Under the pieces are notes generated by a model that did not search any database, was not told the DNA's origin, and was given only the letters and a program-made list of their open reading frames with translations. A stretch of 64,000 nucleotides of DNA, taken from contig CAIIXF020000008.1 of the NCBI GenBank assembly GCA_903813345.2, forward strand, positions 37,634,867 through 37,698,866. The letters run 5' to 3'. Numbering within the stretch: the first letter of the stretch is position 1; the number at the start of each line of letters is the position of its first letter. Made by a program: the position numbers and the translations under genes. Shown piece by piece: positions 41,778 to 63,609 of the stretch. This DNA is from Owenia fusiformis (taxonomy: Eukaryota > Annelida > Polychaeta > Sabellida > Oweniidae).

Positions 41778-41992
41778 CTACAATACAAATGGCAAAAGTG
41801 TAGGGCAACTCATAGTTGAATTTGGGTCGGCGTCATAGGCCACGCAGAGGTCCTCGATCCTCTCATCTGGTAGTTTCTTATCCCAGAAGATAAGTTCATC
41901 GATGATAGCCTCTCCAAATGCTGCCAAGGCATTGTTCGATCTCCCTAACACAACGTTATTCCATGGGGTGGTTTGTACATTCCGTGTCTCCG
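41778..41992 (-). CDS. CCP/LamG gene, last exon: C-terminal part of LamG domain
   Basis: After an acceptor ending ATTTAAG on the minus strand, the frame (phase 1) reads ETRNVQTTPWNNVVLGRSNN, then AAFGEAIIDELIFWDKKLPD and ERIEDLCVAYDADPN, with a stop at 41,778-41,780. GxAxIDELxxWxxxLxxxxIxxL is the conserved last strand of LamG/pentraxin-type jelly rolls. The split codon joins the previous exon cleanly (one base there, two here). The product end is short and hydrophobic (PTLLPFVL), not a clear membrane anchor. Confidence 0.8.
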
Positions 41993-42690
41993 CTTAAATC
42001 GGAAATCATATTTTACATTCATTCATCCAATCTAACGTTTGCAATTTTTGGCAAAGAGTCGATATTCCAGATGTTTTACCAATGATGTATATTTTTATTT
42101 GATTATTTATTCATTTTTGAAGAATCTCCACTATTTATATCAGTGGTACTCCCCCCCCCCCCTTTATCCTTCTCTCTAGGGTCTTGTAACCACCAGTAAG
42201 TTGACACTGATATGAATTATTGATGCTAGATGGTTATCTCTTAACACCTTTTGATCAGCCAATCAGATTCTTTGTTGCATTTATATTTCCATGATTTTGT
42301 CTTGTTGTATATAGAAATACTTTTCTAAACTTAAATCCTTCTCTTAACAAAGGTTTAAAAGCATAAAATAAAAAGTGTAACTAACTAAAACTCTATACAA
42401 GAAAGCATGTCTGGTGCATTGATATATCAAATAGTTCCAACATCATTAATAATTCATGACTTTCGGATCCGATTAGGAAGGTGGCAGCACCTGCATAGAA
42501 TCAGTGGTTACAAGACTGTATATTGCCAGGTAAAGAGAGTGAAGGCGACGGGGGGGGGGGGGTGGATACAGTCTTTGAGCAAGACTAACTTGTTTATGAT
42601 TTAAGATATTCTTCAAACATCATGCGCTCTAAATTCCGAATTATGTAACATTCATTGAAAAGAGTGAGGCCTGCTAATCTACTTGAATTT

Positions 42691-42817
42691 AAAATAATTG
42701 TTAAGTCAAATATGCAATGATTACATACACATTGCATCCGATTCAACGTTTAAGAAAATAATTGTTAAGTTAAATATGCAATGATTACATACCCACTGTA
42801 TCCGATTCAACGTTTAC
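42691..42817. repeat. 63-bp tandem duplication across an exon-intron junction
   Basis: The block AAATAATTGTTAAG...ATGCAATGATTACATAC followed by TCCGATTCAACGTTTA occurs twice in a row. The right copy contains the real exon end and donor of the LamG middle exon. The left copy lies in the intron and keeps a second GTATGT donor (minus strand). Confidence 0.85.
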
Positions 42818-43095
42818 ACAGTCTATCCATAGTTGGAGCCCTTCATCCTGTTTCCACGTGAGCACAATGTGCCGCCATTGCTCTTTCAGTGTCGTCCCAG
42901 GATAGCTCACTTTCCAAATTTCATTCCTGGTGCTAAACCACGAACCTAAATTTCCCGCTAACCAAAATAGGGCTACTCCAAACGAAGATCCCGCCTGTCC
43001 ACCGCTGGAGAAATAATACATCTCATTGGCCACCTTTGGTCCGATGTAAAGCCACATAGAAAGTGTATAACCATTCGGACAAAGCTCTAAATCAC
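42793..43095 (-). CDS. CCP/LamG gene, LamG middle exon
   Basis: 303 bp, phase 1-1, between acceptor TTTGATTTCAG and donor GTATGT. The protein reads GDLELCPNGYTLSMWLYIGP, then YYFSSGGQAGSSFGVALFWL, WFSTRNEIWKVSYPGTT and LKEQWRHIVLTWKQDEGLQL followed by WIDCVNVESDTV. The blocks xxTLSMWxxI and WxHIVLTWxxxxGLxLWID are the core strands of LamG/pentraxin-like concanavalin-fold domains. The paired cysteine partners include CPNG here and ECFG in the previous exon, as in related domains where the segment reads CxxxPxxCxxGxTxSxW. Confidence 0.9.
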
Positions 43096-43323
43096 CTGAA
43101 ATCAAAATAGAGTCATAGGCGTGGCCAGAATCTATTTGAAGATGAATAGGATAATTCAGTCAGATAAACTGAAAGTATACAATGATAAAACTGTATTCAT
43201 GGACCTCTATCCAGAGATATGATTTATTTAAACAATTTAAACTGAGAAAAGTCTGCCTCAAAAAAGTTGGCGGTTTCATGCATGACTACGAAACAAACAG
43301 GACAATGGAAACACGATTCACCT

Positions 43324-43870
43324 ATAACACTGGTGATCCACTCGATTACGCTGGTTACCAAAACGGTTCGTTTTGGTAACAAAATGTCGGAACATCCGGA
43401 AGGTACGATTTTCTCGTTTCCTTATTTTACACGTTGTAGGCAGAATTACCACGACATTTTCTAACACAAACGTGTATCAGTATCATATGTTTAAGAAATT
43501 GTACATATTTGCGAATAAATAGTTCAGAAGACAACAGAATCGTCGATTTAGCCTACTTCCTCACTTAAGTTACATAAACGGTTTGGGTTAAAAGTGCAGA
43601 TCTTAACTGTTTTTCGAAAAACCGTTCATGTAACTTAAGTGAGGAAGTAAATCGACGATTCTGTTGTCCTCTGAGCTATTTTTCGCAAACATGTACATTT
43701 TCTAAAACATATGATACTGCTGTACGTTGTGAGAAAAAACGTCGTGGGGATTCTGCCTACAACGCGTGAAATAAAGAAAAAAGAAAAATCGTGCCTTCGT
43801 CGTTCCGACATTTTGTAACCAAAACGGTTCGTTTTGGTAACCAGCGTAATCGAGTGGATCACCAGTGTAT
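43324..43870. mobile_element. 547-bp near-perfect palindrome (foldback element) in a LamG intron
   Basis: Arms of about 255 bp face each other around a centre near 43,600. The outer ends read ATAACACTGGTGATCCACTC and, from the right, ATACACTGGTGATCCACTCG. Each arm also contains the small hairpin TTACCAAAACGGTTCGTTTT. TATA-like bases flank both ends. No coding content. Confidence 0.9.
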
Positions 43871-44015
43871 AAGAGTTAGGAATTGTGTCGTAATTGAGTC
43901 TCTGGGACATCCTTGAGCGCATTGATATATATTACTTCGACCAAGAAAATAATTCCATGTTGTGAATTTACACTGTAGTTCTCACAGTTGCACAGGCTAA
44001 CTATATCATGGCTGT

Positions 44016-44134
44016 ACCCCCATAAATGTGGGTTCGGTTTGCTTTTTTTAATTTTTGACTTTGATAAGGGGTTTGCTGTAACTAAATGTCAAAAATAGGA
44101 AAAAGCAAATCACCCCCACATTCACGGGGGTATA
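44016..44134. mobile_element. ~119-bp foldback MITE
   Basis: TACCCCCATAAATGTGGGTT followed by TTTGCTTTTTTTAATTTTTG at the left returns inverted at the right (TACCCCCGTGAATGTGGGGG from that side). The arms are about 50 bp around a short spacer. It lies in the intron between the first and middle LamG exons. Confidence 0.8.
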
Positions 44135-44156
44135 TAACTGATGAAATAAAACATAC

Positions 44157-44333
44157 CAAAACATTCGTGTCTGTGATTTCCAAGATCAACCCATTGATCA
44201 AGTCCATCTAAATATATTCCTTGGTCAACCTGGCCCTCATCGAGAGTGGCGTCGTTGTAGATTTTACCATTGGGGCACTCGCCCTCCAAAATATCATCTC
44301 GTTTCCCATCCATTGGTATGTAGTAAATGTAGT
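44157..44333 (-). CDS. CCP/LamG gene, first LamG exon
   Basis: 177 bp, phase 1-1, after acceptor GCCTTGTAG and before donor GTATGT. It encodes YIYYIPMDGKRDDILEGECP, then NGKIYNDATLDEGQVDQGIY and LDGLDQWVDLGNHRHECFG. YxxPMD at the start and GxYLDGxxxWVDLGN at the end are typical first strands of this LamG subfamily. The exon is in phase with both the CCP exons upstream and the LamG middle exon downstream, which is why I place them in one gene. Confidence 0.85.
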
Positions 44334-44364
44334 CTACAAGGCCATGTTAACTATGGTAAAGTGT

Positions 44365-44725
44365 TCAACCTATAGCGTGGAAGCCAGGCACGCTAACCAT
44401 GAGGCCAACGTGCTACCGATATGAAAGAACAAAAGTATTATATATTTATACCGAGCGTCAATTCAAAATGATCCTCACTTTTGACTCCACTTAAATACGA
44501 CTCGTCAGTTGTATCCAGAATAGGTGAACGCCTATGGCGCTAGTGAATAACCAAGTCCCAGGTGAGTGGTTCGTATCCCTCCGTGATATACTATTTTTGT
44601 TTTATTAAATTCGACAGAAAGGAGCAAGGTGTAGTTTGAAAACAAGACGTTAGTTTGTTTCAAACAGTTTGGAAACATTAATCTCTGATAATTTAAGATT
44701 TTCCACTCCTGGAGGGCCTCTAGAT
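44365..44725 (+). repeat. tRNA-derived SINE-like repeat, copy 1 (inverse of 49,435-49,790)
   Basis: Shares about 350 bp with the copy at 49.4-49.8 kb in opposite orientation. Inside, 44,530-44,586 looks tRNA-derived: an A-box-like TATGGCGCTAGTGAA and, about 33 bp later, a B-box-like GTGGTTCGTATCC. At 44,370-44,420 the complement of a second tRNA-like head is present. Not an intact tRNA gene. Confidence 0.65.
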
Positions 44726-44735
44726 CTATGAAATT

Positions 44736-45480
44736 CATTAATCCACTCAGTAAAAATACGATTTCTCTGCAACCTGATGTCCAATCAAGATCATTGAAAT
44801 ATATATGTGTTCCTGACACGTTTGGGCGTCCGGGAATAGCAAGGTCTACACAAAGTTTGCACGCGAAATTGACGTTATTCATGACTGAAATCGGGAAGAC
44901 AAAATTTGAGATTCACAAACAAAATTGCTTGTGAAAACTATTTACAAAAGTGTTCCAGAGACTCTAATCTACTTGGCTAAGGTTTTATCTGAAGATACAT
45001 TGCCTTATTAAGCAGGTAGAGGGGCATACAGAATACGGAAGCAAATGCTATGTTGAAAATTTTCTATATTTCAATTTGAACCTGTTATTACATGCCACGT
45101 AGGCCAGTGTTTTATATGGGGATTATATGTACTTTACTTGTTTACACGAACGTAAATCATTACATGAAATCTGCATTCTTCCGGGTTTAATCGGGGTTTG
45201 TATTGTCGTATTGGGGCTTTTCGACTTTAAAACAAACCCTACCTAAATGGATTGTGTCTCGGGAACGTTTTTGTAAATAGTTATTATAAACAATTCTGAA
45301 AGAATATCACATATTTTTGTCTTCCCGATTTCAGTCATTAATTACGTCAATTTCTCGTGCAAACATTGGGTAGACGTTGTCATAACCTGATGCCAGAACG
45401 TGTCAGGAACATATAGATACTCGAATGATGTTGATTGAACATCAGGGTGCAGAGAAATCGTAATTTTACTGAGTGGCTTC
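44736..45480. mobile_element. ~745-bp foldback element
   Basis: Arms 44,736-44,970 and 45,245-45,480 are inverted relatives. Blocks GACTGAAATCGGGAAGACAA, AACTATTTACAAAA and CACTCAGTAAAA occur on both sides in mirrored order. The arms are more diverged than in the neighbouring palindrome. CTCGTCAGTTGTATCCAG occurs in direct orientation outside both ends (44,503-44,520 and 45,519-45,536). Confidence 0.75.
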
Positions 45481-45854
45481 ACGAAAAAATAAGCAGCACT
45501 TTAGGCCACCTTAAATACAACTCGTCAGTTGTATCCAGTTTGAATCCCAGCGTAATTTTTTAAATTATATGGTTGTGCTTTGATTTTACGCTGAAAACAT
45601 TTATAACTACGTCAACTTTATATTAAAACATTTTTTATCTTTTCAGTTTTATTAAAATGTAAAATATGATATATGTCAGCTTATTGCTTTCTGGAGAACA
45701 GTCAAGGTTTAAAGGACAAGGTGCAATTATTGGCAAATATCCCTATGGTCAAAATGAATCATTCGTATAGGTGTAACATGAAGAATAAAATGTCATATAA
45801 TACTTTGGAAAATATTAAAGTGCTCGGACACACATAAGCTGAAATTATCACAGA

Positions 45855-46400
45855 AATACCAAAAATACTCTATGACCTGAATCGATTGCAAACTTAATAA
45901 TTTCACAATACGACACAAATGGTTTATCTCATCAAATGTGCAAATATGAAGTTTGCAATCGATTCAGGTCATACTTAAAATTAAAAGATTGTACATTTTC
46001 TCATCATTTTTTCCCTACAAAATGGCTATAGAAAAATGCTCCAAAAACAACTTTTACACTTATCAAATATCATACAAGTTTGTAAAACCAAAGATTATAC
46101 TATTATATTTCATTATGCAGTAACATTTTTGGATAAGATGCAGGGATGCGTAGGATGTAAATGGATTTTGACAGACACAAAAATACTTCCTGGTTTGGAA
46201 TCTATGCCTCTACACTTGATGATTGAATTATGACTCTAATAAGTGGCCTATACATCAATACAGTGCTGAATATAGGTCAACAAGATACTAGTGTGCATAT
46301 AAATGTAATAATTGAAGCAGAATAATCATTTTGAAAAATCAGATGAATTATTTTTTCCCATGGGGAGATCCCAATGGAGGGTGTATAAGGTCCTTTGGTA
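45855..46400 (-). repeat. Dispersed repeat family X, copy 2
   Basis: Opposite orientation to 37,725-38,185. Its left end (45,872-45,972) is a hairpin element with 24-bp perfect arms, ATGACCTGAATCGATTGCAA and complement. The right end contains TCAGATGAATTATTTTTTCC and GGGGAGATCC, matching the start of copy 1. Confidence 0.85.
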
Positions 46401-46787
46401 CAATGAATCGGACACTCATGTAAATCGACAAGGTTATCACATTGAGCTCAATGCAGTAAATTAGTTATTTCTATGAATCACAGCGGGATTGGTTTCATTT
46501 TATATGATTGCCAACTCTGGCGGTATTTTTGTAAATGCTTTTGACCGCGGTAAATGTGAAACTGATACAGTTGTGTATTATTCAATTGTTTTATGTCTTG
46601 GTCACATTTGCTCCGATTTTCACTACGGCGCCCGGCCGATTGAGTATTGTGTTCAGAAATGTATTCAATTTTGAACAAAATACTCGCAGCAAATGTGATC
46701 CAGGCATTACACAGCGGTATTTCGAACATACTTTTGTTGCATAACCACGACCTAGCCAATTTTAAAATCATACTCCTTATTTAAATC

Positions 46788-48141
46788 AAACGATAGGAGC
46801 TCATGGAAAGTATACATTTTAACTTTTATACATCTTTACAAATACTAGAAATCTACATGTTCGAGTGGATCACGAAGGGTCCCCACATAGCAGCAGTCTC
46901 AATAAAAATGCAAAATCCCTGTATTGATAACTTGACTTTGACAGATTTTTGAATTGAGATGAACTTGATGAAACCTCGTGAAACGCCAGATACTAGTACC
47001 TAGATGTGACCTTGAAATAATGTTGGCCAATACACATTGACTTTGACCTTAGGTCACCTAATATTGTGTCGTCAAGGGTCATTGTAGCCCTCAAGGTCCT
47101 TACAACGCCAAATACTTAGATATTAATTTTTGATCTTGAAACAAACTTGACCCTGTAACATTGGCCTTGAACTCAGTTCACCTAATCGTTGGTTGCCAAG
47201 GGTCACAGCAGCCCAAAGGACTTTAAATCACCAAAAACCTAGATATTGATATTTTACATAGGAATGACCTTGACTTCAGGTCACTTAATCATGCCTCATC
47301 AAGGGTCGAATCTCAGACCAACGGTAAAAAACGCGTAAACCTAGATATTGACATTTTAAAGAGAGAATCGGATCTAGCAAGCAGTCTAACAAAAAAAATT
47401 GTTTCAATTTTAGAATATTTCTGGCTTATGTCAGATCCCAAAAGTGCACACTTTATTTCAGGAAAACTAAAGAGTTTACAACAATGACTTTTGCATATTT
47501 CTTCTATAAGAATGGTTACTTATTATTTACAATTTTGCACTTTTAATCTATTATAACTTCATCAATTTCTAACATATCGTAAATATTTTGTGAGATTTTG
47601 TATTTGAGACTGTAAGGAATAGTGTACGTCAGTTGTACATGTTGCTTGTAATTTTGTCACCTCCATATATCTGATTCTGCCTTTAACCTAGAATGACTTT
47701 GACCTCTGACCTTAGTAGAACGCTCACTGACCCATCAAGTATGAGGGCAAAAGGAGATGTCGAGACCTACTATGAAGCATGTTCGGTCTGTCTGTCATTT
47801 TGTCTGTCTGTCGGGACATCTCCTTCTACACCATTTAACCTTAGTAAGTTGGTCTCCAAAGGTCAGAGTTAAGTTAATTCAAAGGTAAACGATCAATGTC
47901 TAGGTATTTGGCGTTTGATGATACTATGGCCCTTGGCGAATTATGATTAGATGAACCGAGGTCAACATTAATGTTTCTTGTACAAGGTCATCCCAAGCTC
48001 AAAGATAAATATTTAGGTATTTTACGTTTCAAGACCTTTGGACAAATTCGATTCAATTCAAGAGTATTTTGTATTTTTTTTGTAAAGATGTATTAAAGTT
48101 AAAATGTATACAGAGATAAAATAGGTTAGCTCCTATCGTTT
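46788..48141. mobile_element. 1.35-kb TIR element with facing repeat arrays
   Basis: The left end AAACGATAGGAGCT (46,788) returns inverted at the right (to 48,141), and both are followed inward by GTATACATTTTAACTTT and TACATCTTTACAAA. Inside, a ~120-bp degenerate tandem unit marked by CCTAGATATTGA and CAAGGGTCA runs in one orientation at 46,975-47,340 and in the other at 47,860-48,050. GGAGATGTCG and CGGGACATCTCC near 47,755 and 47,813 form a stem. No transposase is visible. Confidence 0.75.
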
Positions 48142-48479
48142 CCTTGTGTATACGTTTATGTCTCTGCGTAATAACGCAGATGCGAGCAGGTAGTTACCAG
48201 TCTCACCACAAGGTGGCTCGTTCGGGTCAGATAGCATGGCGGGTATGGTAGAAAGTTCCCTTAAACTTAAAGTACATCTGTTTTCGTGGTTCAATTTTCA
48301 TATCACCCTTAAAATGTATCTAATAGCAATGCAAATTAAAATATGTCCAGTGAAAGAAAATGCAATACAAGAATAGATATTTCACTTTTTGTGATTTTGT
48401 AACAATGGGGTTATTTTTTGTATAACGCATTGAAACATCTTTAAAAAGTGAGCAATGTCAGTGTTGTGATAATAACGCC

Positions 48480-48795
48480 CCTCATACCTATTTATTACAG
48501 GTCGTGTAGACCATTGTTGCCTGATTTATTGCAAAAACATTGACTTTTGCACGTTGATGATGATGATGATGCGCCTTTTATAATTGATCTCATATCTTAG
48601 AAGCGTATCAGTTCAAAAAAATACTAGAAGACCTTACATATTTTGCCATGCACTGCGCCTATTCATTTGGCAATTCAGTTGTAAATTTTATCTTGAAAAA
48701 AATAAATCTTCCAAATTTGTTGAGTTTTCTTGCAGAAATCGCCTACTCCCCCCCCCCCCCCTCCATCCATTTTGTATGATCACCGGGCGTGATTT
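48480..48795 (-). mobile_element. Single arm of the G-rich foldback family
   Basis: Matches one arm of the element at 6,954-7,964: TTATTACAGGTCGTGTAGAC on the inner side and a C-rich run followed by TGATCACCGGGCGTGATTT at the outer side. The second arm is absent, so this is a solo arm or a truncated copy. A (GAT)n run at 48,555-48,569 is additional. Confidence 0.75.
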
Positions 48796-49434
48796 AAGCT
48801 GCTGATATTCTTCTTTAAACGAGTCAGGTCTTCAAAATCTATAATTTGGACTCCCTTTATAGAAGCTTTGAACTGAATTTGCACTGCTTAATGCTGAAAT
48901 TTTATTGTTTATCCATACATTTTAAGAAAAAATATATAAAAAGAGATGTTAAGCCAAATGTTGCCCTAAAAATTCAGAAAATGTAAAAAAAAATTCGAAT
49001 TTTCTATGTACAGGCCTTGTTGCCCCTTTAAGAAACTCAATATGTAAATTATCTAATCAAACACTTCGTCCACCATTTTGAAACACTAATCAATCCAATC
49101 TGTGCTAGCGATTCATAGGGCGAGCCATTGGGATATTTCTAGGGTTCGTACACACCTGCAAATGTCAGGGAAATTGACTTAATTTTCAAAGTGCTGGAAA
49201 TGTCAGATAATTTTAAAATTAGGTCAAAAGGGCCAAAGATGACCGGGAATTTTGAAACGGTAGATATGTCAGGGAAATTTGTATCAGTGTTGAAAAAATA
49301 ATGTTCCAGAAAAAAAAATTTAGGACTATGACAGGATATCAATGAAATCCAAAATGTAATATTTAGTTGATTCCACAGGCTAAAGTATGAAAATGTATAA
49401 CATATATCTAAAAATTTTACACTGTCTTGATTAA

Positions 49435-49805
49435 TGAATTTCATAGATCTAGAGGCCCTTGGAAAATCTTAAATTATTATTTGAAACAAACTAACGTCTT
49501 GTTTTCAAACTACACCTTGCTCCTTTCTGTCGTATTTAATAAAACAAAAATAGTATATCACGGAGGGATACGAACCACTCACCTGGGACTTGGTTATTCA
49601 CTAGCGCCATAGGCGTTCACCTATTTTGGATACAACTGACGAGTCGTATTTAAGTGGAGTCAAAAGTGAGGATCATTTTGAATTGACGCTCGGTATAAAT
49701 ATATATAATACTTTTGTTCTTTCATATCGGTTGCACGTTGGCCTCATGGTTAGCGTGCCTGGCTTCCACGCTATAGGTTAGTTGATCGAGACCCGTTCAT
49801 GTCGA
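49435..49805 (-). repeat. tRNA-derived SINE-like repeat, copy 2
   Basis: Inverse of 44,365-44,725. On the minus strand GGTGAACGCCTATGGCGCTA and GGTTCGTATCCC form the tRNA-like part. On the plus strand, at 49,740-49,795, CATGGTTAGCGTGCC and GATCGAGACCC look like a second A/B-box pair in head-to-head orientation. Confidence 0.65.
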
Positions 49806-49856
49806 ACTTTTTGATTTGCTTGTTGTCAAGATATAATAAGTAGGGCAAAATCCAGA

Positions 49857-50290
49857 AAAAGTAGATCAAAAATACTCCAATGGAGTATAAAATTGTCACC
49901 AGGATTCCGAAATGAGACGAATGCAACTCGTTAAATCTCGGTAGATAAGGTAGGTCAGAAAATCCGGTTTAATCCGAACTAGGTTCGGGAATTTTCGTCA
50001 TAAGAAGTAGATCAAAAATACTCCAATGGAGTATAAAATTGTCACCAGGATTCCGAAATGAGACGAATGTTAACTCGTGAAATCTCGGAAGATAAAGTAG
50101 GTCAGAAAATCCGGATTAATCCGAACAAGGTTCGGGAATTTTCGTCATAAGTAGTAGATCAAAAATACTCCAAATGGAGTATAAAATTGTCACCAGGATT
50201 CCGAAATACGACGAATCGAATCGGCAAATTTCGGTACAATAATGAAGTGCATAAAAACCGAAATGATCCAAACAACGTTCGGATAAAATC
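49857..50290. repeat. ~147-bp tandem repeat, three units
   Basis: GTAGATCAAAAATACTCCAA starts units at about 49,860, 50,006 and 50,154. Each contains GTCACCAGGATTCCGAAAT and, in the first two, GGTTCGGGAATTTTCGTCAT. The third is more diverged at its end. Confidence 0.9.
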
Positions 50291-51359: not shown

Positions 51360-51545
51360 GTTCACACGTTACATCTGTCCCACTCCATTCCAAGGACATG
51401 TTTGCCACCTCGCAGTTTCTATATTGGTCCCCAATTAAAACAAATCCCGGGTCACAAGCGTAACAAGCCAGCGAGCCCTCAGTTCTTCCATTAAATTCCA
51501 AAGATCCATTTCCAGGAGCCTCCAATTCATCACAAAGTGCGACGG
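51360..51545 (-). CDS. CCP exon 18 (type A), last CCP before the LamG domain
   Basis: 186 bp, phase 1-1, acceptor TTTCAAATAG and donor GTAAGT. One CCP module: CDELEAPGNGSLEFNGRTEG, then SLACYACDPGFVLIGDQYRN and CEVANMSLEWSGTDVTC. The CCP landmarks are the first Cys, the YACxPGF motif, the third Cys, Trp and the final Cys. An additional Cys (SLAC) makes five. Sequons NGS and NMS are present. In the mature gene this module is joined across a 7-kb intron to the LamG part. Exon numbers here count the 18 CCP exons seen, from the right window edge. Confidence 0.9.
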
Positions 51546-51727
51546 CTATTTGAAACGTGAAACATAAACTCAGGCTCGAGTCCTGGACTAACATTTTTTC
51601 CTATATTGCTAACTATTTTATTCAATATCACTTAATCAATATTTTTGCAAGAAAATGTTTTGCTATCAAAACCTTTTAATTATTCTTTATCATACGCATA
51701 TTTATTTTTGCAAAATGGATAACATAC

Positions 51728-51913
51728 GTTCACATGTTGCATCGGTTCCAGTCCACTGTACAAATCCTCCTGTCTCTACACAGATCCGATACTGGCCCCC
51801 AGTTAAAACAAATCCCGGGTCACAAGCGTAACAAGCCAGGGAGCCCTCAGTGCGTTCATTGATAACAAGGGATCCATTTCCAGGAACTTCCAATTCATCA
51901 CAAAGCGCGACGG
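51728..51913 (-). CDS. CCP exon 17 (type B)
   Basis: 186 bp, phase 1-1, donor GTATGT. It encodes CDELEVPGNGSLVINERTEG, then SLACYACDPGFVLTGGQYRI and CVETGGFVQWTGTDATC. Type B differs from type A after the first Cys (VINERTEG for EFNGRTEG) and around the third Cys (ICVETG for NCEVAN). Protein identical to exons 12 and 7. Confidence 0.9.
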
Positions 51914-52648
51914 CTATTTGAAATATAAAAAAAAATTTAGAAACAACATGTCAATGGATAAACAAATGTCTTGTTGTGTTTTTAAGACTTGGTTTTGTCT
52001 ATCTCAAATCATTTGAGACTGAATGTTATATCTCTGTATATGGGAACTTGTGTCTTCAACTATTTTTGATGTTATATGGTAGTAATAAGTTTTAGCTATC
52101 AGTGTCTTATTTTTTCTTCAAACTGTATTGTAACGACTTCAGTGATGAACAAAATATTCCTTGTTGTTAAGGTCTTGGATTGTGATATTGATGTCTTGAA
52201 TGATTGGTTCTTGAATGCTTAGGAAAGGTGGTATTAGATATTGTTTCTTTTACGATAAATCATGGTTTTGGGATATACACTTAGAGGTTGCTTTTTATTG
52301 CTAGGTTCTATTACAACTTTTAGTCCTTTCCCTTTGGCTCTCGTGCTTATATATTTGTGAGCTGGATTAACACAATTACGAATGGTTTTATTACACATGC
52401 TTAAAAATTTGAGAAGAAGACTCAAGGCATTAAAGTCTAGGAAACAATGCATGAGTCCGGGACTGAAATTCTTTCACATATTGCCAACTATTTTATTCGG
52501 TGTCACTTGAAACAATATCTTTCTCACTAAAATCTAAAAATAGCCCAGGTTTATTAGCAAGGGTGCGTTGTTGATTATATAATGCAAATGGACACGCTTT
52601 GCCTCGCTATGTGAAAATTATATCTTATATTTTCAAAAGAAAACTTAC

Positions 52649-52834
52649 GTTCACACGTTACATCTGTCCCACTCCATTCCAAGGACATGTTTGCCACCTC
52701 ACAGTTTCTATATTGGTCCCCAATTAAAACAAATCCCGGGGCACAAGCGTAACAAGCCAGCGAGCCCTCAGTTCTTCCATTAAATTCCAAAGATCCATTT
52801 CCAGGAGCCTCCAATTCATCACAAAGTGCAACAG
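52649..52834 (-). CDS. CCP exon 16 (type A, CAPGF variant)
   Basis: 186 bp, phase 1-1, acceptor TTTCACATAG. Standard A sequence, but YACAPGFVLIG replaces YACDPGFVLIG; ends SGTDVTC. Shares this variant with exons 11 and 6, which hold the same place in the duplicated units. Confidence 0.9.
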
Positions 52835-53020: not shown

Positions 53021-53206
53021 GTTCACACGTTGCTGCGGTTCCATTCCACTGTACGGATGTTCCTGTCTCCACACAGATCCGATGTTGGTCCCCAGTTAAA
53101 ACAAATCCCGGGTCACAAGCGTAACAAGCCAGGGAGCCCTCAGTGCGTTCATTGATTACAAGAGATCCATTTTCAGGAACTCCCAATTCATCACAAAGCG
53201 CGACGG
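53021..53206 (-). CDS. CCP exon 15 (type B)
   Basis: 186 bp, phase 1-1. Reads CDELGVPENGSLVINERTEG and, later, GDQHRICVETGTSVQWNGTA then ATC. Relative to other B modules it has G for E after DEL, and gains a second sequon (NGT) beside the Trp. Confidence 0.9.
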
Positions 53207-54111
53207 CTATTTGAAACATAAACATAAATTCAGAAACAACATTTCAATGGATAAACAAATGTTTTGTTGTGTTTTTGCTCACACTGTTGAACTTTTGCCA
53301 TCACTCACTTGTCCGTCTGTCCATCTGTCTGACTGCACGTTTTAACTATTTGGTAGCTTAATTTATGAATTATGGCGACGACTTTTCAGATGGATGTTGG
53401 CCCTTCGAAATGTCTATAGACTTGGTTTTGTCTATCTCAAATCATTTGAGACTGAATGTTATATCTTCTATGGGAACTTGTGTCTTCAACTATTTTTGAT
53501 TTTATAAAGTAGTAATAAGTATTGGCTATCTGTGTCTTATTTTTTCTTCAAACTGAATTGTAACGACTTCAGTGATGAATAAAATATTCCTTGGTGTTAT
53601 AGTCCTGGATTGTGATTGGTTCTTGAATGATTGTTTTTGAATGCTTAGGAAAGGTGGTATTAGATATTGTTTCTTTGACGTTAAATCATGGTTTTGGGAT
53701 AGATTGGGTTTGTTTTTCTCATGACTGGCGTACACTTAGAGTTTGCTTTTGATTGCTAGCTGCTATTACAACTTCTAGTCCCTTCCCTTTGGCTCTCGTG
53801 CTTACATATTTGTAAAATTAATTAACACTATTAGGAATGGTCTAATTACACAAGCCATGTTAAAGAATTTGAGAAGAAGACTCAAGACATTGAAGTCCAG
53901 GAAATAATGCATGAGTCCTGGACTGAAATTCTTTCACACAACTATTTTATTCAGTATCACTTGAAACAATATTTTTATCACTGAAATCTAAAAGTAGCCC
54001 AGGTTTATTAGCACATGTAGCAAGGGTGCGTTGTTGATTATATAATGCAAAAGGACACGCCTCGCCTCACTATGTGAAAAGTATATCTAATAATTTCTAA
54101 AGAAAACTTAC

Positions 54112-54297
54112 GTTCACACGTTGCATCTATCCCACTCCATTCCAAGGACATGTTTGCAACCTCGCAGTTTCTATATTGGTCCCCAATTAAAACAAATCCC
54201 GGGTCACAAGCGTAACAAGCCAGTGAGCCCTCAGTTCTTCCATTAAATTCCAAAGATCCATTTCCAGGAGCCTCCAATTCATCACAAAGCGCGACGG
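54112..54297 (-). CDS. CCP exon 14 (type A)
   Basis: 186 bp, phase 1-1. A-type module ending WSGIDATC in place of WSGTDVTC. It is the downstream member of an A-A doublet created by a 1.25-kb duplication, so the A/B alternation is broken here. Same protein as exon 9. Confidence 0.9.
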
Positions 54298-55361
54298 CTA
54301 TTTGAAACATAAACATAAATTCAGAAAAAATATTTTAATGGATAAACAAATGTTTTGTTGTGTTTTTTGCTCACACTGTTGAACTTTTGCCATCACTCAC
54401 TTGTCCGTCTGTCCATCTGTCTGACTGCACGTTTTAAAAGCTCTCTCTATAGGATTCGGGCTTTAAGTTATCTCTGTTCAACATCAATACAGAAAATTCT
54501 TCTGTGATTCTTAGTTCAAAAGCTCGTCAATTTCCAAAATGGCCACCATTTTTGTTAATTTTCATTTCAAAAATGTATTCAAAATTCATTTTGAACTATT
54601 TGGTAGCTTAATTTATGAATTATGGCGACGACTTTTCAGATGGATGTTGGCCCTTCAAAATGTCTATAGACTTGGTTTTGTCTATCTCAAATCATTTGAG
54701 ACTGAATGTTATATCTTCTATGGAAACTTGTGTCTTCAACTATTTTTGATTTTATAAAGTAGTAATAAGTATTGGCTATCTGTGTCTTATTTTTTCTTCA
54801 AACTGAATTGTAACGACTTCAGTGATGAATAAAATATTCCTTGGTGTTATAGTCCTGGATTGTGATTGGTTCTTGAATGATTGTTTTTGAATGCTTAGGA
54901 AAGGTGGTATTAGATATTGTTTCTTTGACGTTAAATCATGGTTTTGGGATAGATTGGGTTTGTTTTTCTCATGACTGGCGTACACTTAGAGTTTGCTTTT
55001 GATTGCTAGCTGCTATAACAACTTCTAGTCCTTTCTCTTTGGCTCTCGTGCTTACATATTTGTAAAATTAATTAACACTATTAGGAATGGTCTAATTACA
55101 CAAGCCATGTTAAAAAATTTGAGAAGAAGACTCAAGACATTAAAGTCCAGGAAATAATGCATGAGTCCTGGACTGAAATTCTTTCACACAACTATTTTAT
55201 TCAGTATCACTTGAAACAATATTTTTATCACTGAAATCTAAAAGTAGCCCAGGTTTATTAGCACATGTAGCAAGGGTGCGTTGTTGATTATATAATGCAA
55301 AAGGACACGCCTCGCCTCACTATGTGAAAAGTATATCTAATAATTTCTAAAGAAAACTTAC

Positions 55362-55547
55362 GTTCACACGTTGCATCTATCCCACTCCATTCCAAGGACA
55401 TGTTTGCAACCTCGCAGTTTCTATATTGGTCCCCAATTAAAACAAATCCCAGGTCACAAGCGTAACAAGCCAGCGAGCCCTCAGTTCTTCCATTGAATTC
55501 CAAAGATCCATTTCCAGGAGCCTCCAATTCATCACAAAGTGCAACAG
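55362..55547 (-). CDS. CCP exon 13 (type A)
   Basis: 186 bp, phase 1-1, acceptor TTTCACATAG. A-type module with YACDLGFV (Pro to Leu in the PGF turn) and the ending SGIDATC. The Leu is unique to this copy; its partner in unit 2 keeps the Pro. Confidence 0.9.
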
Positions 55548-55734
55548 CTATGTGAAACATGAAACATAAATTCAGGCCAGGCATGAGTCCTGGACTAAAT
55601 TTTTTTCCTATATTGCTAACTATTTTATTCAATATCACTTAAATAATATTTCTGCAAGAAAATGTTTTGCTATCAAAACCTTTTAATCATTCTTTATCAT
55701 ACGTATATTTATTTTTGCAAAATGGATAACATAC

Positions 55735-55920
55735 GTTCACATGTTGCATCGGTTCCAGTCCACTGTACAAATCCTCCTGTCTCTACACAGATCCGATACT
55801 GGCCCCCAGTTAAAACAAATCCCGGGTCACAAGCGTAACAAGCCAGGGAGCCCTCAGTGCGTTCATTGATTACAAGGGATCCATTTCCAGGAACTTCCAA
55901 TTCATCACAAAGCGCGACGG
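55735..55920 (-). CDS. CCP exon 12 (type B)
   Basis: 186 bp, phase 1-1. Protein identical to exons 17 and 7 (GGQYRICVETGGFVQWTGTD). Confidence 0.9.
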
Positions 55921-56654
55921 CTATTTGAAATATAAAAAAAATTTAGAAACAACATGTCAATGGATAAACAAATGTTTTGTTGTGTTTTTAAGACTTGGTT
56001 TTGTCTATCTCAAATCATTTGAGACTGAATGTTATATCTCTGTATATGGGAACTTGTGTCTTCAACTATTTTTGATGTTATATGGTAGTAATAAGTTTTA
56101 GCTATCAGTGTCTTATTTTTTCTTCAAACTGTATTGAAACGACTTCAGTGATGAACAAAATATTCCTTGTTGTTAAGGTCTTGGATTGTGATATTGATGT
56201 CTTGAATGATTGGTTCTTGAATGCTTAGGAAAGGTGGTATTAGATATTGTTTCTTTTACGATAAATCATGGTTTTGGGATATACACTTAGAGGTTGCTTT
56301 TTATTGCTAGGTGCTATTACAACTTTTAGTCCTTTCCCTTTGGCTCTCGTGCTTATATATTTGTAAGATGGATTAACACAATTACGAATGGTTTTATTAC
56401 ACATGCTTAAAAATTTGAGAAGAAGACTGAAGGCATTAAAGTCTAGGAAACAATGCATGAGTCCGGGACTGAAATTCTTTCACATATTGCCAACTATTTT
56501 ATTCGGTGTCACTTGAAACAATATCTTTCTCACTAAAATCTAAAAATAGCCCAGGTTTATTAGCAAGGGTGCGTTGTTGATTATATAATGCAAATGGACA
56601 CGCTTTGCCTCGCTATGTGAAAATTATATCTTATATTTTCAAAAGAAAACTTAC

Positions 56655-56840
56655 GTTCACACGTTACATCTGTCCCACTCCATTCCAAGGACATGTTTGC
56701 CACCTCACAGTTTCTATATTGGTCCCCAATTAAAACAAATCCCGGGGCACAAGCGTAACAAGCCAGCGAGCCCTCAGTTCTTCCATTAAATTCCAAAGAT
56801 CCATTTCCAGGAGCCTCCAATTCATCACAAAGTGCAACAG
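56655..56840 (-). CDS. CCP exon 11 (type A, CAPGF variant)
   Basis: 186 bp, phase 1-1. Same protein as exon 16, at the equivalent place in unit 2. Confidence 0.9.
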
Positions 56841-57026
56841 CTATGTGAAACATGAAACATAAATTCAGGCCAGGCATGAGTCATGGACTAAATTTTTTCC
56901 TATATTGTTAACTATTTTATTCAATATCACTTAAATAATATTTCTGCAAGAAAACGTTTTGCTATCAAAACCTTTTAATCATTCTTTATCATACGTATAT
57001 TTATTTTTGCAAAATGGATAACATAC

Positions 57027-57212
57027 GTTCACATGTTGCATCGGTTCCAGTCCACTGTACAAATCCTCCTGTCTCTACACAGATCCGATACTGGCCCCCA
57101 GTTAAAACAAATCCCGGGTCACAAGCGTAACAAGCCAGGGAGCCCTCAGTGCGTTCATTGATTACAAGAGATCCATTTTCAGGAACTTCCAATTCATCAC
57201 AAAGCGCGACGG
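57027..57212 (-). CDS. CCP exon 10 (type B, chimeric)
   Basis: 186 bp, phase 1-1. The first half reads VPENGSL, as in exon 15, but the second half is GGQYRICVETGGFVQWTGTD as in exons 12, 7 and 17 instead of the DQxRICVETGxSVQWNGTAA expected at this place. The adjacent intron also follows the exon 12/7 version, indicating gene conversion. Confidence 0.9.
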
Positions 57213-58117
57213 CTATTTGAAACATAAACATAAATTCAGAAACAACATTTCAATGGATAAACAAATGTTTTGTTGTGTTTTTGCTCACACTGTTGAACTT
57301 TTGCCATCACTCACTTGTCCGTCTGTCCATCTGTCTGACTGCACGTTTTAACTATTTGGTAGCTTAATTTATGAATTATGGCGACGACTTTTCAGATGGA
57401 TGTTGGCATTTCGAAATGTCTATAGACTTGGTTTTGTCTATCTCAAATCATTTGAGACTGAATGTTATATCTTCTATGGGAACTTGTGTCTTCAACTATT
57501 TTTGATTTTATAAAGTAGTAATAAGTATTGGCTATCTGTGTCTTATTTTTTCTTCAAACTGAATTGTAACGACTTCAGTGATGAATAAAATATTCCTTGG
57601 TGTTATAGTCCTGGATTGTGATTGGTTCTTGAATGATTGTTTTTGAATGCTTGGGAAAGGTGGTATTAGATATTGTTTCTTTGACGTTAAATCATGGTTT
57701 TGGGATAGATTGGGTTTGTTTTTCTCATGACTGGCATACACTTAGAGTTTGCTTTTGATTGCTAGCTGCTATTACAACTTCTAGTCCTTTCCCTTTGGCT
57801 CTCGTGCTTACATATTTGTAAAATTAATTAACACTATTAGGAATGGTCTAATTACACAAGCCATGTTAAAGAATTTGAGAAGAAGACTCAAGACATTGAA
57901 GTCCAGGAAATAATGCATGAGTCCTGGACTGAAATTCTTTCACACAACTATTTTATTCAGTATCACTTGAAACAATATTTTTATCACTGAAATCTAAAAG
58001 TAGCCCAGGTTTATTAGCACATGTAGCAAGGGTGCGTTGTTGATTATATAATGCAAAAGGACACGCCTCGCCTCACTATGTGAAAAGTATATTTAATAAT
58101 TTCTAAAGAAAACTTAC

Positions 58118-58303
58118 GTTCACACGTTGCATCTATCCCACTCCATTCCAAGGACATGTTTGCAACCTCGCAGTTTCTATATTGGTCCCCAATTAAAACA
58201 AATCCCGGGTCACAAGCGTAACAAGCCAGCGAGCCCTCAGTTCTTCCATTAAATTCCAAAGATCCATTTCCAGGAGCCTCCAATTCATCACAAAGCGCGA
58301 CGG
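58118..58303 (-). CDS. CCP exon 9 (type A)
   Basis: 186 bp, phase 1-1. Same module as exon 14 (SGIDATC ending); downstream member of the unit-2 A-A doublet. Confidence 0.9.
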
Positions 58304-59367
58304 CTATTTGAAACATAAACATAAATTCAGAAAAAATATTTTAATGGATAAACAAATGTTTTGTTGTGTTTTTTGCTCACACTGTTGAACTTTTGCCATC
58401 ACTCACTTGTCCGTCTGTCCATCTGTCTGACTGCACGTTTTAAAACCTCTCTCTATAGGATTCGGGCTTTAAGTTATCTCTGTTCAACATCAATACAGAA
58501 AATTCTTCTGTGATTCTTAGTTCAAAAGCTCGTCAATTTCCAAAATGGCCACCATTTTTGTTAATTTTCATTTCAAAAATGTATTCAAAATTCATTTTGA
58601 ACTATTTGGTAGCTTAATTTATGAATTATGGCGACGACTTTTCAGATGGATGTTGGCCCTTCAAAATGTCTATAGACTTGGTTTTGTCTATCTCAAATCA
58701 TTTGAGACTGAATGTTATATCTTCTATGGGAACTTGTGTCTTCAACTATTTTTGATTTTATAAAGTAGTAATAAGTATTGGCTATCTGTGTCTTATTTTT
58801 TCTTCAAACTGAATTGTAACGACTTCAGTGATGAATAAAATATTCCTTGGTGTTATAGTCCTGGATTGTGATTGGTTCTTGAATGATTGTTTTTGAATGC
58901 TTAGGAAAGATGGTATTAGATATTGTTTCTTTGACGTTAAATCATGATTTTGGGATAGATTGGGTTTGTTTTTCTCATGACTGGCGTACACTTAGAGTTT
59001 GCTTTTGATTGCTAGCTGCTATTACAACTTCTAGTCCTTTCTCTTTGGCTCTCGTGCTTACATATTTGTAAAATTAATTAACACTATTAGGAATGGTCTA
59101 ATTACACAAGCCATGTTAAAAAATTTGAGAAGAAGACTCAAGACATTAAAGTCCAGGAAATAATGCATGAGTCCTGGACTGAAATTCTTTCACACAACTA
59201 TTTTATTCAGTATCACTTGAAACAATATTTTTATCACTGAAATCTAAAAGTAGCCCAGGTTTATTAGCACATGTAGCAAGGGTGCGTTGTTGATTATATA
59301 ATGCAAAAGGACACGCCTCGCCTCACTATGTGAAAAGTATATCTAATAATTTCTAAAGAAAACTTAC

Positions 59368-59553
59368 GTTCACACGTTGCATCTATCCCACTCCATTCCA
59401 AGGACATGTTTGCAACCTCGCAGTTTCTATATTGGTCCCCAATTAAAACAAATCCCGGGTCACAAGCGTAACAAGCCAGCGAGCCCTCAGTTCTTCCATT
59501 GAATTCCAAAGATCCATTTCCAGGAGCCTCCAATTCATCACAAAGTGCAACAG
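59368..59553 (-). CDS. CCP exon 8 (type A)
   Basis: 186 bp, phase 1-1. Counterpart of exon 13, with the usual CDPGF turn and SGIDATC ending. Confidence 0.9.
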
Positions 59554-59740
59554 CTATGTGAAACATGAAACATAAATTCAGGCCAGGCATGAGTCCTGGA
59601 CTAAATTTTTTTCCTATATTGCTAACTATTTTATTCAATATCACTTAAATAATATTTCTGCAAGAAAACGTTTTGCTATCAAAACCTTTTAATCATTCTT
59701 TATCATACGTATATTTATTTTTGCAAAATGGATAACATAC

Positions 59741-59926
59741 GTTCACATGTTGCATCGGTTCCAGTCCACTGTACAAATCCTCCTGTCTCTACACAGATCC
59801 GATACTGGCCCCCAGTTAAAACAAATCCCGGGTCACAAGCGTAACAAGCCAGGGAGCCCTCAGTGCGTTCATTGATTACAAGGGATCCATTTCCAGGAAC
59901 TTCCAATTCATCACAAAGCGCGACGG
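59741..59926 (-). CDS. CCP exon 7 (type B)
   Basis: 186 bp, phase 1-1. Protein identical to exons 12 and 17. Confidence 0.9.
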
Positions 59927-60661
59927 CTATTTGAAATATAAAAAAAAATTTAGAAACAACATGTCAATGGATAAACAAATGTTTTGTTGTGTTTTTAAGA
60001 CTTGGTTTTGTCTATCTCAAATCATTTGAGACTGAATGTTATATCTCTGTATATGGGAACTTGTGTCTTCAACTATTTTTGATGTTATATGGTAGTAATA
60101 AGTTTTAGCTATCAGTGTCTTATTTTTTCTTCAAACTGTATTGAAACGACTTCAGTGATGAACAAAATATTCCTTGTTGTTAAGGTCTTGGATTGTGATA
60201 TTGATGTCTTGAATGATTGGTTCTTGAATGCTTAGGAAAGGTGGTATTAGATATTGTTTCTTTTACGATAAATCATGGTTTTGGGATATACACTTAGAGG
60301 TTGCTTTTTATTGCTAGGTGCTATTACAACTTTTAGTCCTTTCCCTTTGGCTCTCGTGCTTATATATTTGTAAGATGGATTAACACAATTACGAATGGTT
60401 TTATTACACATGCTTAAAAATTTGAGAAGAAGACTCAAGGCATTAAAGTCTAGGAAACAATGCATGAGTCCGGGACTGAAATTCTTTCACATATTGCCAA
60501 CTATTTTATTCGGTGTCACTTGAAACAATATCTTTCTCACTAAAATCTAAAAATAGCCCAGGTTTATTAGCAAGGGTGCGTTGTTGATTATATAATGCAA
60601 ATGGACACGCTTTGCCTCGCTATGTGAAAATTATATCTTATATTTTAAAAAGAAAACTTAC

Positions 60662-60847
60662 GTTCACACGTTACATCTGTCCCACTCCATTCCAAGGACA
60701 TGTTTGCCACCTCACAGTTTCTATATTGGTCCCCAATTAAAACAAATCCCGGGGCACAAGCGTAACAAGCCAGCGAGCCCTCAGTTCTTCCATTAAATTC
60801 CAAAGATCCATTTCCAGGAGCCTCCAATTCATCACAAAGTGCAACAG
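60662..60847 (-). CDS. CCP exon 6 (type A, CAPGF variant)
   Basis: 186 bp, phase 1-1. Same variant as exons 16 and 11; lies in the partial third copy of the 4-kb unit. Confidence 0.9.
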
Positions 60848-61033
60848 CTATGTGAAACATGAAACATAAATTCAGGCCAGGCATGAGTCATGGACTAAAT
60901 TTTTTCCAATATTGTTAACTATTTTATTCAATATCACTTAAACAATATCTTTGCAAGAAAATGTTTTGCTGTCAAAACCTTTTAATAATTCTTTATCATA
61001 CGCATATTTATTTTTGCAAAATGGATAACATAC

Positions 61034-61219
61034 GTTCACACGTTGCTGCGGTTCCATTCCACTGTACGGATGCTCCTGTCTCCACACAGATCCGATCTTG
61101 GTCCCCAGTTAAAACAAATCCCGGGTCACAAGCGTAACAAGCCAGGGAGCCCTCAGTGCGTTCATTGATTACAAGGGAACCATTTCCAGGAACCTCCAAT
61201 TCATCACAAAGCGCGACGG
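61034..61219 (-). CDS. CCP exon 5 (type B)
   Basis: 186 bp, phase 1-1. Reads EVPGNGSLVINERTEG, then DQDRICVETGASVQWNGTAA. It corresponds in position to exons 15 and 10 and carries the NGT sequon. Confidence 0.9.
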
Positions 61220-61289
61220 CTATTTGAAACATAAACATAAATTCAGAAACAAAATTTCAATTAATAAACAAAGGTTTTGTTGTGTTTTT

Positions 61290-62240
61290 GCTCACATGGT
61301 AAGCTTTTGCCATCACTCATTTGTCCGGCTGTCTGCCTGCGAGTTTTAAAACCGCTCTCTATAGGATTTCCGTTTTAAGGTATTTCTGTTCAACATCAAT
61401 ACAGAAAATTCCTCTATGACTAGTTGTTCAAAAGCACGCCTATTTTCAAAATGGCCTCCATTTTTGTCTGGCAAAATTCATTTGTAAACCATTTGGTAGC
61501 TTTATTTATGAATCATGGCGACGGCTTTTCGGATAGATGTTGACCCTTGGAAATGCCTATGGACTTTAAGACTTGGTTTTGTCTATCTCAAATCATTTGA
61601 GACTGAATGTTATATCTTCTATGGGAACTTGTGTCTTTAACTACTTTTGATGTTATGTTAGTAGTAGTAATAAGTTTTGGCTATCAGTGTCTATTTTTTT
61701 CTTCAAACTGTATTGTAACGACTTCAGTGATGAATAAAATATTCCTTGGTGTTATGGTCTTGGATTGTGTTATATTGGTTCTTGAATGATTGGTTCTTGA
61801 ATGCTTAGGAAAGGTGGTATTAGATATTGTTTCTTTTACGATAAATCATGGTTTTGGGATATATTGGGATATACACTTAGATGTTGCTTTTTATTGCTAG
61901 GTGCTATTACAATTTTTAGTCCTTTCCCTTTGGCTCTCGTGCTTAGATATTTGTATGATGGATTAACACAATTACGAATGGTTTTATTACACATGCTAAA
62001 GAATTTGAGAAGAAGACTCAAGGCATTAAAGTCTAGGAAACAATGCATGAGTCCGGGACTGAAATTCTTTCACATATTGCCAACTATTTTATTCAGTGTC
62101 ACTTGAAACAATATCTTTCTCACCAAAATCTAAAAATAGTTCAGGTTTATTAGCAAGGGTGCGTTGTTGATTATATAATGCAAATGGACACGCTTTGCCT
62201 CGCTATGTGAAAATTATATCTTATATTTTCAATGAAAACT
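61290..62240. other. Intron with recurrent non-coding block
   Basis: Contains the motif CATTTGTCCGGCTGTCTGCC and a block (61,490-62,110) that recurs in other introns of the cluster (for example 52.0-52.5, 56.0-56.5 and 60.0-60.5 kb). Open frames in it on both strands (up to 101 codons) reappear in each copy but have no domain, so they are not called as genes. Confidence 0.6.
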
Positions 62241-62243
62241 TAC

Positions 62244-62429
62244 GTTCACACGTTACATTTCTCCCACTCCATTGCAAGGACATGTTTGCCACCTCGCAGT
62301 TTCTATATTGGTCCCCAATTAAAACAAATCCCGGGTCACAAGCGTAACAGGCCAACGAGCCCTCAGTTCTTCCATTAAATTCCAGAGATCCATTTCCAGG
62401 AGCCTCCAATTCATCACAAAGTGCGACGG
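62244..62429 (-). CDS. CCP exon 4 (type A)
   Basis: 186 bp, phase 1-1, acceptor TTTAAAATAG. Reads CEVANMSLQWSGRNVTC; the NVT adds a sequon next to the last Cys. More diverged from the duplicated units, so it predates them. Confidence 0.9.
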
Positions 62430-62614
62430 CTATTTTAAACATGAAACATAAATCAAGACACGAGTCCTGGACTAACATTTTTTCACATATTGCCAACTAT
62501 TTTATTCAATATCACTTAATTAATCAATATTTTGCAAGAACATTTTTTGCTTTCAAAACCTTTTAATTTTTCTTTATCATACGAATATTTGTTTTTGCAA
62601 CATGGATAACATAC

Positions 62615-62800
62615 GTTCACACGTTGCTGCGGTTCCATTCCACTGTACGAATCCCCCTGTCTCTACACAGATCCGATATTGGTCCCCAGTTAAAACAAAT
62701 CCCGGGTCACAAGCATAACAAGCCAGGGAGCCCTCAGTGCGTTCATTGATTACAACAGATCCATTTCTAGGAACTTCCAATTCATCACAAAGCGCGACGG
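62615..62800 (-). CDS. CCP exon 3 (type B)
   Basis: 186 bp, phase 1-1. Reads VPRNGSVVINERTEG and CVETGGFVQWNGTAATC. Confidence 0.9.
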
Positions 62801-63030
62801 CTATTTGAAACATAAAAATATATTCAGAAACAAAATTTCAATGTCCTGGACTGAAATTCTTTCACACATTGCCAACTATTTTATTCAGTATGACTTGAAA
62901 CAATATTTTTATCACTAAAATGTAAAAATAGCCCAGATTTATTAGCAAGGTGCGTTGTTGATTATTTAATGCAAATGGACATGCCTCGCTATGTGAAAAT
63001 TATATTTAATATTTTCAAAAGAAAACTTAC

Positions 63031-63216
63031 GTTCACACGTTGCATCTGTCCCGCTCCATTCTAAGGACATTTTTTCCACCTCGCAGTTTCTATATTGGTC
63101 CCCAATTAAAACAAATCCTGGGTCACAAGCGTAACAAGCCAGCGAGCCCTCAGTTCTTCCATTAAATTCCAGAGATCCATTTCCAGGAGCCTCCAATTCA
63201 TCACAAAGTGCGACGG
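63031..63216 (-). CDS. CCP exon 2 (type A)
   Basis: 186 bp, phase 1-1. Reads CEVEKMSLEWSGTDATC; Asn to Lys removes the NMS sequon seen in other A modules. Confidence 0.9.
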
Positions 63217-63398
63217 CTATTTAAAACGTGAAACATAAATTCAGGCTCGAGTCCTGGACTAACATTTTTTTACATATTGCTAACTATTTTATTCAAAATC
63301 ACTTAAACAATATTATTGCAAGAAAATGTTTTGCTATCAAAACCTTTTAATTATTCTTTATCATACGCATATTTATTTTTGCAAAATGGATAACATAC

Positions 63399-63584
63399 GT
63401 TCACACGTTGCTGCGGTTCCAGTCCACTGTACGGATCCTTCTGTCTCCACACAGATCCGATATTGGTCCCCAGTTAAAACAAATCCCTGGTCACAAGCGT
63501 AACAAGCCAGGGAGCCCTCAGTGCGTTCATTGATTACAAGGGATCCACTTCCAGGAACTTCCAATTCATCACAAAGCGCGACAG
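63399..63584 (-). CDS. CCP exon 1 in this window (type B)
   Basis: 186 bp, phase 1-1. Reads VPGSGSLVINERTEG, YACDQGFVLTGDQYRI and CVETEGSVQWTGTAATC. It lacks the NGS sequon and has Gln for Pro in the turn. The acceptor AAATAG in phase 1 shows that at least one more exon lies beyond the right edge of the window. Confidence 0.9.
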
Positions 63585-63609
63585 CTATTTGAAACATAAG
63601 CAAAAATTC

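Follow-up and report, generated by a model that had tools for sequence, protein, structure and literature searches.

Complement control protein (CCP, or Sushi) domains are found in several well-described extracellular proteins that resemble, each in some respect, the gene examined here; we compare it with them as they are presented in excerpts of the papers cited. Haptoglobin, which is secreted, combines a serine-protease domain with one CCP or two; disulfides stabilize its CCP linkage, and the additional CCP of Hp2 converts dimers to multimers (PMC12273918, PMC12274614). In human CR1, unequal crossing-over has duplicated and deleted blocks of CCP repeats, and size alleles with three to six repeats are the result (PMC4842007). 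SVEP1/Polydom is an extracellular protein that adds vWFA, Ephrin-like, HYR, EGF, and pentraxin domains to a CCP array (PMC10281526), and vCRL1 of Ciona is an invertebrate sushi-domain protein that has been discussed as a recognition molecule (PMC8849226). The locus that we compare with these lies in a 64,000-nucleotide stretch (the window; C8:37,634,867-37,698,866, where C8 is contig CAIIXF020000008.1) of the 498-Mb genome of the annelid Owenia fusiformis, and holds a tandem array of 18 CCP exons followed by exons of a LamG domain. Our reading, which we put forward at somewhat less than an even chance of being right as a whole, is that this is one minus-strand gene for a secreted, multivalent extracellular protein of 1,486 amino acids (aa) that would be cross-linked by disulfides. 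Its features fit a linkable extracellular protein better than a fast-evolving receptor for recognition. The combination of an array of CCPs with five cysteines (Cys), a LamG domain and array-less sister genes appears to be new, while the array dynamics and the proposed chemistry each have a known precedent; in the literature on related combinations, judged by titles and abstract openings, we recognized no description of this protein.

All 18 array exons are exactly 186 bp long, in phase 1-1 and on the minus strand, and each encodes one CCP with a match to the Sushi profile (PF00084) of 24.1-31.3 bits, against a Pfam gathering score of 20.7. They fall into two types, A and B, and are listed here from 5' to 3' in window coordinates, each placed by exon anatomy and its Sushi match:

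63399..63584, minus strand: array exon 1, CCP type B, 186 bp, phase 1-1
63031..63216, minus strand: array exon 2, CCP type A
62615..62800, minus strand: array exon 3, CCP type B
62244..62429, minus strand: array exon 4, CCP type A
61034..61219, minus strand: array exon 5, CCP type B, opening the 4,007-bp block 1
60662..60847, minus strand: array exon 6, CCP type A
59741..59926, minus strand: array exon 7, CCP type B
59368..59553, minus strand: array exon 8, CCP type A
58118..58303, minus strand: array exon 9, CCP type A, preceded by another A
57027..57212, minus strand: array exon 10, CCP type B, opening block 2
56655..56840, minus strand: array exon 11, CCP type A
55735..55920, minus strand: array exon 12, CCP type B
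55362..55547, minus strand: array exon 13, CCP type A
54112..54297, minus strand: array exon 14, CCP type A, preceded by another A
53021..53206, minus strand: array exon 15, CCP type B, opening the partial block 3
52649..52834, minus strand: array exon 16, CCP type A
51728..51913, minus strand: array exon 17, CCP type B
51360..51545, minus strand: array exon 18, CCP type A, the last of the array

The resulting order, BABABABAABABAABABA, is mostly alternating, with two A-A neighbours. In every array exon the acceptor AG is followed by two bases that complete a split proline codon, and the exon ends in C before the donor GTAAGT in type A (n = 10) or GTATGT in type B (n = 8). Nine array introns measure 182-230 bp and the other eight 734-1,064 bp. 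When a type-A unit was searched against the whole genome and 150 of the 222 candidates were scored, the matches listed at this locus were these same 18 places and one diverged upstream CCP.

What distinguishes the array units is their fifth Cys. Their Cys stand at positions 4, 27, 30, 44, and 60 of 61 whole codons in 18/18 units, and the extra one, at 27, is three residues ahead of the second canonical Cys in every unit. The pattern of exactly four Cys, which is usual but not obligatory in Sushi domains, is thus found in none of the 18, a variant with which the profile match stands. The diverged upstream CCP (CCP1) has four Cys, with Phe at the extra-Cys position in all three copies of the gene described below. 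Related units elsewhere in the genome, six on C5 and two at C8:27.82 Mb, have the extra Cys in 8/8 cases, and the last unit of each of these two groups has a sixth; in a more distant cluster on C2, none of the nine units read (of 15 matches) has Cys at this position, although a single unit among them carries an additional Cys at another site. Given the in-out alternation of the beta-strand beside the second canonical Cys, the extra side chain should face outward, and an odd surface Cys in a secreted protein is often bonded to another chain.

Under the cross-linking reading, all 23 coding exons would be spliced into one transcript, and the predicted protein would consist of a signal peptide, a Lys/Ser-rich basic stretch, the four-Cys CCP1, the 18 five-Cys CCPs and a C-terminal LamG. 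The LamG domain and the basic stretch may attach to glycans or matrix as putative binding parts, the CCP array would serve as an extended stalk, and the unpaired surface Cys of each CCP could form inter-chain disulfide links in the manner of haptoglobin, with the number of units setting the count of links per molecule. The likeliest setting would be a secreted matrix, mucus, a tube, an egg coat or a body-fluid polymer. Like haptoglobin, this is a predicted secreted protein with an odd Cys in its CCPs (18/18); unlike haptoglobin, it has 18 units, and LamG in place of the protease; Pfam profiles matched no serine-protease domain when the spliced protein was scanned with a single array unit. The odd Cys of haptoglobin results from a missing canonical partner, whereas here an additional Cys has been gained, at the third residue ahead of the second canonical one. 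If the spare Cys does bond between chains, array length would tune the cross-linking of extracellular material.

The main rival to a cross-linker is a stiff spacer or adhesive stalk, in which the extra Cys pair between neighbouring CCPs of one chain and a rigid rod holds LamG off a surface or matrix, without inter-chain links. We consider it unlikely, though it keeps a real chance of being correct. Long CCP stalks are common, and the 18 extra Cys are even in number, as such pairing would have it; however, the two A-A neighbours break strict A-B pairing, the two units read at C8:27.82 Mb (in a gene model that is incomplete) have five and six Cys, an odd sum, and the extra Cys would lie in a mid-domain strand, away from the domain ends.

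The gene model that carries the cross-linking reading extends beyond the array on both sides. Apart from the array exons, it comprises the following parts, where the splice sites of the signal-peptide, CCP1 and three LamG exons were picked by eye so as to agree with the consensus, keep phase and leave the frame open:

64598-64799 (extended coordinates, outside the window), minus strand: exon with a signal-peptide-like start, then a Lys/Ser-rich basic stretch
64214-64393 (extended coordinates, outside the window), minus strand: CCP1 exon, four Cys
63585..64000, minus strand: intron running to the window end; the gene goes on past the window
44157..44333, minus strand: LamG exon 1, 177 bp, phase 1-1, splice sites by eye
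42793..43131, minus strand: LamG exon 2, 339 bp, phase 1-1, Laminin_G_3, splice sites by eye
41778..41992, minus strand: LamG exon 3 including the stop codon, acceptor by eye

CCP1 matches Sushi at 32.4 bits, above the gathering score, and the spliced LamG exons match Laminin_G_3 (PF13385) at 55 bits, against a cut-off of 27.6. With the predicted splicing, the 23 joined coding exons keep an open frame of 1,486 aa, with the sole stop at its end and every junction in phase 1, and because all introns share this phase, units can be gained or lost in frame. When the spliced protein, represented with a single array unit, was scanned against Pfam (E up to 0.1), only Sushi and Laminin_G_3 exceeded their cut-offs, and four of the open reading frames between the array and LamG, scanned separately, gave no Pfam match above cut-off. 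The first-pass annotation of the window had described 18 exons of equal length and phase with one CCP each, followed by a LamG domain, as a modular extracellular protein, and this architecture is upheld. Its end points were exact, in that the first 186-bp exon begins at 63584 and the LamG stop codon ends at 41778; as for the extent of the gene, it had captured the array and LamG, but left the strand unstated and missed the 5' end (CCP1 and the signal peptide), which lies past the window end.

Whether the CCP and LamG exons belong together is informed by two further copies of the gene on the same contig, at C8:37.519-37.534 Mb and C8:37.614-37.625 Mb:

C8:37518523-37535000, same strand as the array-bearing copy: array-less copy of the gene with exon stubs
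C8:37613600-37625800, same strand as the array-bearing copy: array-less copy of the gene with exon stubs

In all three copies the signal peptide, CCP1 and LamG have the same order and strand, and both array-less copies have open frames of 363 aa, with CCP1 and LamG exon lengths identical to those of the array-bearing copy. The stretch 44,369-50,948 of the window has no sequence in common with the sister copies at E 1e-4 or better, so that in the absence of the array CCP1 is followed by LamG as the next conserved exon. Because the arrangement of signal peptide, CCP1 and LamG outlasts the array in these copies, the CCP and LamG exons are very probably one gene, for which this comparison gives the strongest evidence. 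The alternative of two adjacent, co-duplicated genes, one with the signal peptide and CCP array and a separate one with LamG, has in our view only a slight chance. About 7 kb separate the last CCP exon from LamG, and the ~8.5 kb read upstream of a LamG homologue at C2:5.737-5.739 Mb contain no CCP match, both of which would suit two genes; yet a consensus donor follows the last CCP exon, the frame of LamG exon 1 begins just past a stop and has its first ATG only inside the domain, the joint frame is open, and the order recurs in three copies.

Both sisters also retain remnants of a lost array, namely intron 4 (94% identity) and the opening bases of two array exons, 25 bp of exon 1 and 56 bp of exon 5. 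These stubs imply that the array was once present there and then deleted, so that its loss is derived; the deletion would most simply have taken place in the common ancestor of the two sisters, whose main aligned pieces are 97-99% alike. The array thus appears dispensable in frame, judging from the open short forms of the two sisters, and the earlier expectation that its length could change without loss of frame is borne out by these two array-less genes. Their proteins would be forms without the proposed links. The family therefore offers a clean natural case in which one genome has both 18-unit and zero-unit forms of a symmetric-phase exon array, the stubs in the zero-unit forms showing that the array was lost. 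The Lys/Ser-rich stretch differs between the sisters and the array-bearing copy by whole-codon insertions and deletions, including a 24-base repeat unit.

The history of the array can be read from its units. In a tree of 30 units (including three of the nine C2 units read), types A and B form separate clades with support of 100/100 and 97/97, and they differ by a synonymous divergence (dS) of ~0.6, so the A-B pair is old. More recent events are seen in larger repeats:

57213..61219, minus strand: five-exon block 1, exons 5-9, 4,007 bp
53207..57212, minus strand: five-exon block 2, exons 10-14, 4,006 bp, with 39 substitutions and one gap relative to block 1
61505..61951, minus strand: dispersed ~445-bp repeat in array intron 4

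Of the 39 sites at which blocks 1 and 2 differ over their 4,006 aligned bases, 23 are near exons 5 and 10, within columns 1-400, and the other 3,606 columns contain 16 (0.44%). Exon 10 has 15 differences from exon 5 and two from exons 7 and 12, a pattern that suggests local exchange. A third block is partial, covering exons 15-18 with similarity lost part-way. Sequence identity is complete among exons 6, 11, and 16 and between exons 7 and 12, while units 1-4 each differ by at least six bases from every other unit. The array appears to have grown by unequal exchange that initially involved a B-A exon pair and, in recent times, the 4.0-kb five-exon block, whose repetition agrees with the earlier description of the array as homogenised. 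All eight long array introns contain homologous sequence covering at least part of the ~445-bp repeat, which occurs in at least 32 other places on many contigs at 76-79% identity and is a possible recombination substrate. We looked for a tRNA in this repeat and found none, an Rfam scan of the window gave no match, and its inverted repeats are short and imperfect only.

Assembly error or merged alleles could also produce 4.0-kb repeats, in which case the true array would be shorter; divergence of ~0.4% is within the allelic range of marine invertebrates. We judge this very unlikely, as the first two blocks differ at 39 sites and a gap, and the similarity of the third ends part-way. As in CR1, near-identical multi-CCP blocks stand in tandem (two complete blocks and a partial third), although here the block consists of five CCPs in 4.0 kb and one genome has been read. 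CR1 is a membrane receptor without LamG. This block-wise resemblance to the long homologous repeats of CR1, together with best sequence matches among solved structures that are complement receptors and regulators, would be in favour of a complement regulator of the CR1 or C4BP type, binding activated complement via repeated CCP sites. Such a role seems highly improbable, because these structure matches reflect the common CCP fold, and because CR1 and C4BP have, to our knowledge, neither such an extra Cys nor a LamG domain.

An extension of the cross-linking reading, speculative and more probably wrong than right by a wide measure, is that the number of odd-Cys units varies among individuals by exchange of the five-exon block and sets matrix cross-link density, as a heritable valency dial, with the array-less sisters making chain-terminating or competing short forms. 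If so, CR1-type length alleles and haptoglobin-type disulfide polymerisation would be united in a single system that arose independently in an invertebrate. Should the spare Cys bond between chains, it becomes possible to test whether binding diversity or valency is what maintains tandem CCP arrays.

Selection was assessed by counting each change once against the majority codon, with one-sided p values. Type A shows nine nonsynonymous and 12 synonymous changes (ratio 0.21, p 0.0004), and type B 15 and 11 (ratio 0.44, p 0.034); mean pairwise ratios are 0.18 for A-A, 0.40 for B-B and 0.31 for A-B. Selection on the repeats as a whole is purifying, and nonsynonymous divergence (dN) does not exceed dS over them, these being unit-wide ratios that leave single sites apart. 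Between the array-bearing gene and its nearest copy, LamG has a dN of 0.042 and a dS of 0.086. The first-pass annotation had likened the product to fast-evolving recognition molecules and allowed for a receptor; these ratios do not support the first suggestion, nor does the C-terminus support the second, as reading it by eye showed no membrane anchor (no topology program was run). We therefore regard as doubtful, and quite unlikely, a fast-evolving molecule recognizing self and non-self, gametes or pathogens, with array diversity generated by exchange. In its favour, length variation is plausible given the recent block duplication and the loss of the sister arrays, codons 40-58 contain many of the amino-acid changes in type B, and vCRL1 is described as highly polymorphic (PMC8849226). 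Against it, ratios are below 1 in both unit types, LamG shows the same excess of dS, the units are undergoing homogenisation, the C-terminus as read shows no membrane anchor, and for vCRL1 the evidence from segregation and knock-down implicates the blood system and not self recognition (PMC8849226). In contrast to vCRL1, with which we compare it by description and not by sequence, the array here has no signature of diversification.

Several considerations count against a cross-linking protein. The whole gene model, with its predicted splicing and product, comes from genomic sequence alone. Since the AlphaFold model of the type-A unit was poor (mean predicted local distance difference test, pLDDT, 44.8; alignment of 12 of the 18 array units) and was not used, exposure of the extra Cys rests on strand alternation argued from the Sushi consensus. 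The even number of extra Cys makes intrachain pairing possible, and because the array units are near-identical, the uniformity of their Cys is partly due to shared recent descent; more independent support comes from the A/B split (dS ~0.6) and the relatives on C5 and C8. Phase and openness at the five exons delimited by eye are partly a matter of construction, as their sites were chosen for them, and the acceptor of LamG exon 3 is weak in the array-bearing copy. Exons peculiar to that copy within 44,369-50,948 would escape the comparison with the sisters. Finally, the type-B ratio is weak evidence and compatible with selected single sites.

The similarity to SVEP1, which had been proposed at first, goes no further than an extracellular CCP array and a sub-threshold Pentaxin match (15.2 bits vs 25). 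Of the remaining domains of SVEP1, vWFA, Ephrin-like, HYR, and EGF are, like pentraxin, all below cut-off here; VWA and HYR gave no match at all in the Pfam scan, and a cEGF match of 24.3 bits, under its cut-off of 26.6, is located inside CCP1. With only Sushi and Laminin_G_3 above cut-off and a domain content that differs in this way, orthology with or membership of SVEP1 was rejected.

Elsewhere in the genome, the five-Cys CCP exon is found in small arrays at C5:5425500-5431500 and C8:27819500-27823000, each of which closes with a six-Cys unit. Open frames that read by eye, without profiles, like coding sequence of a long interspersed nuclear element (LINE) adjoin both, which suggests that the five-Cys exon and its flanks have moved around the genome. 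A second very large CCP array is present at C1:21970151-21978388, as an unbroken open frame of 2,766 codons that holds 40 of the 150 CCP matches listed. Within the window, a 701-aa open frame at 28912-31014 on the minus strand contains a reverse transcriptase domain (PF00078, 106 bits) and is probably a LINE-type element, and a 77-bp tandem repeat of 5.8 copies with 100% match lies at 32095-32541.

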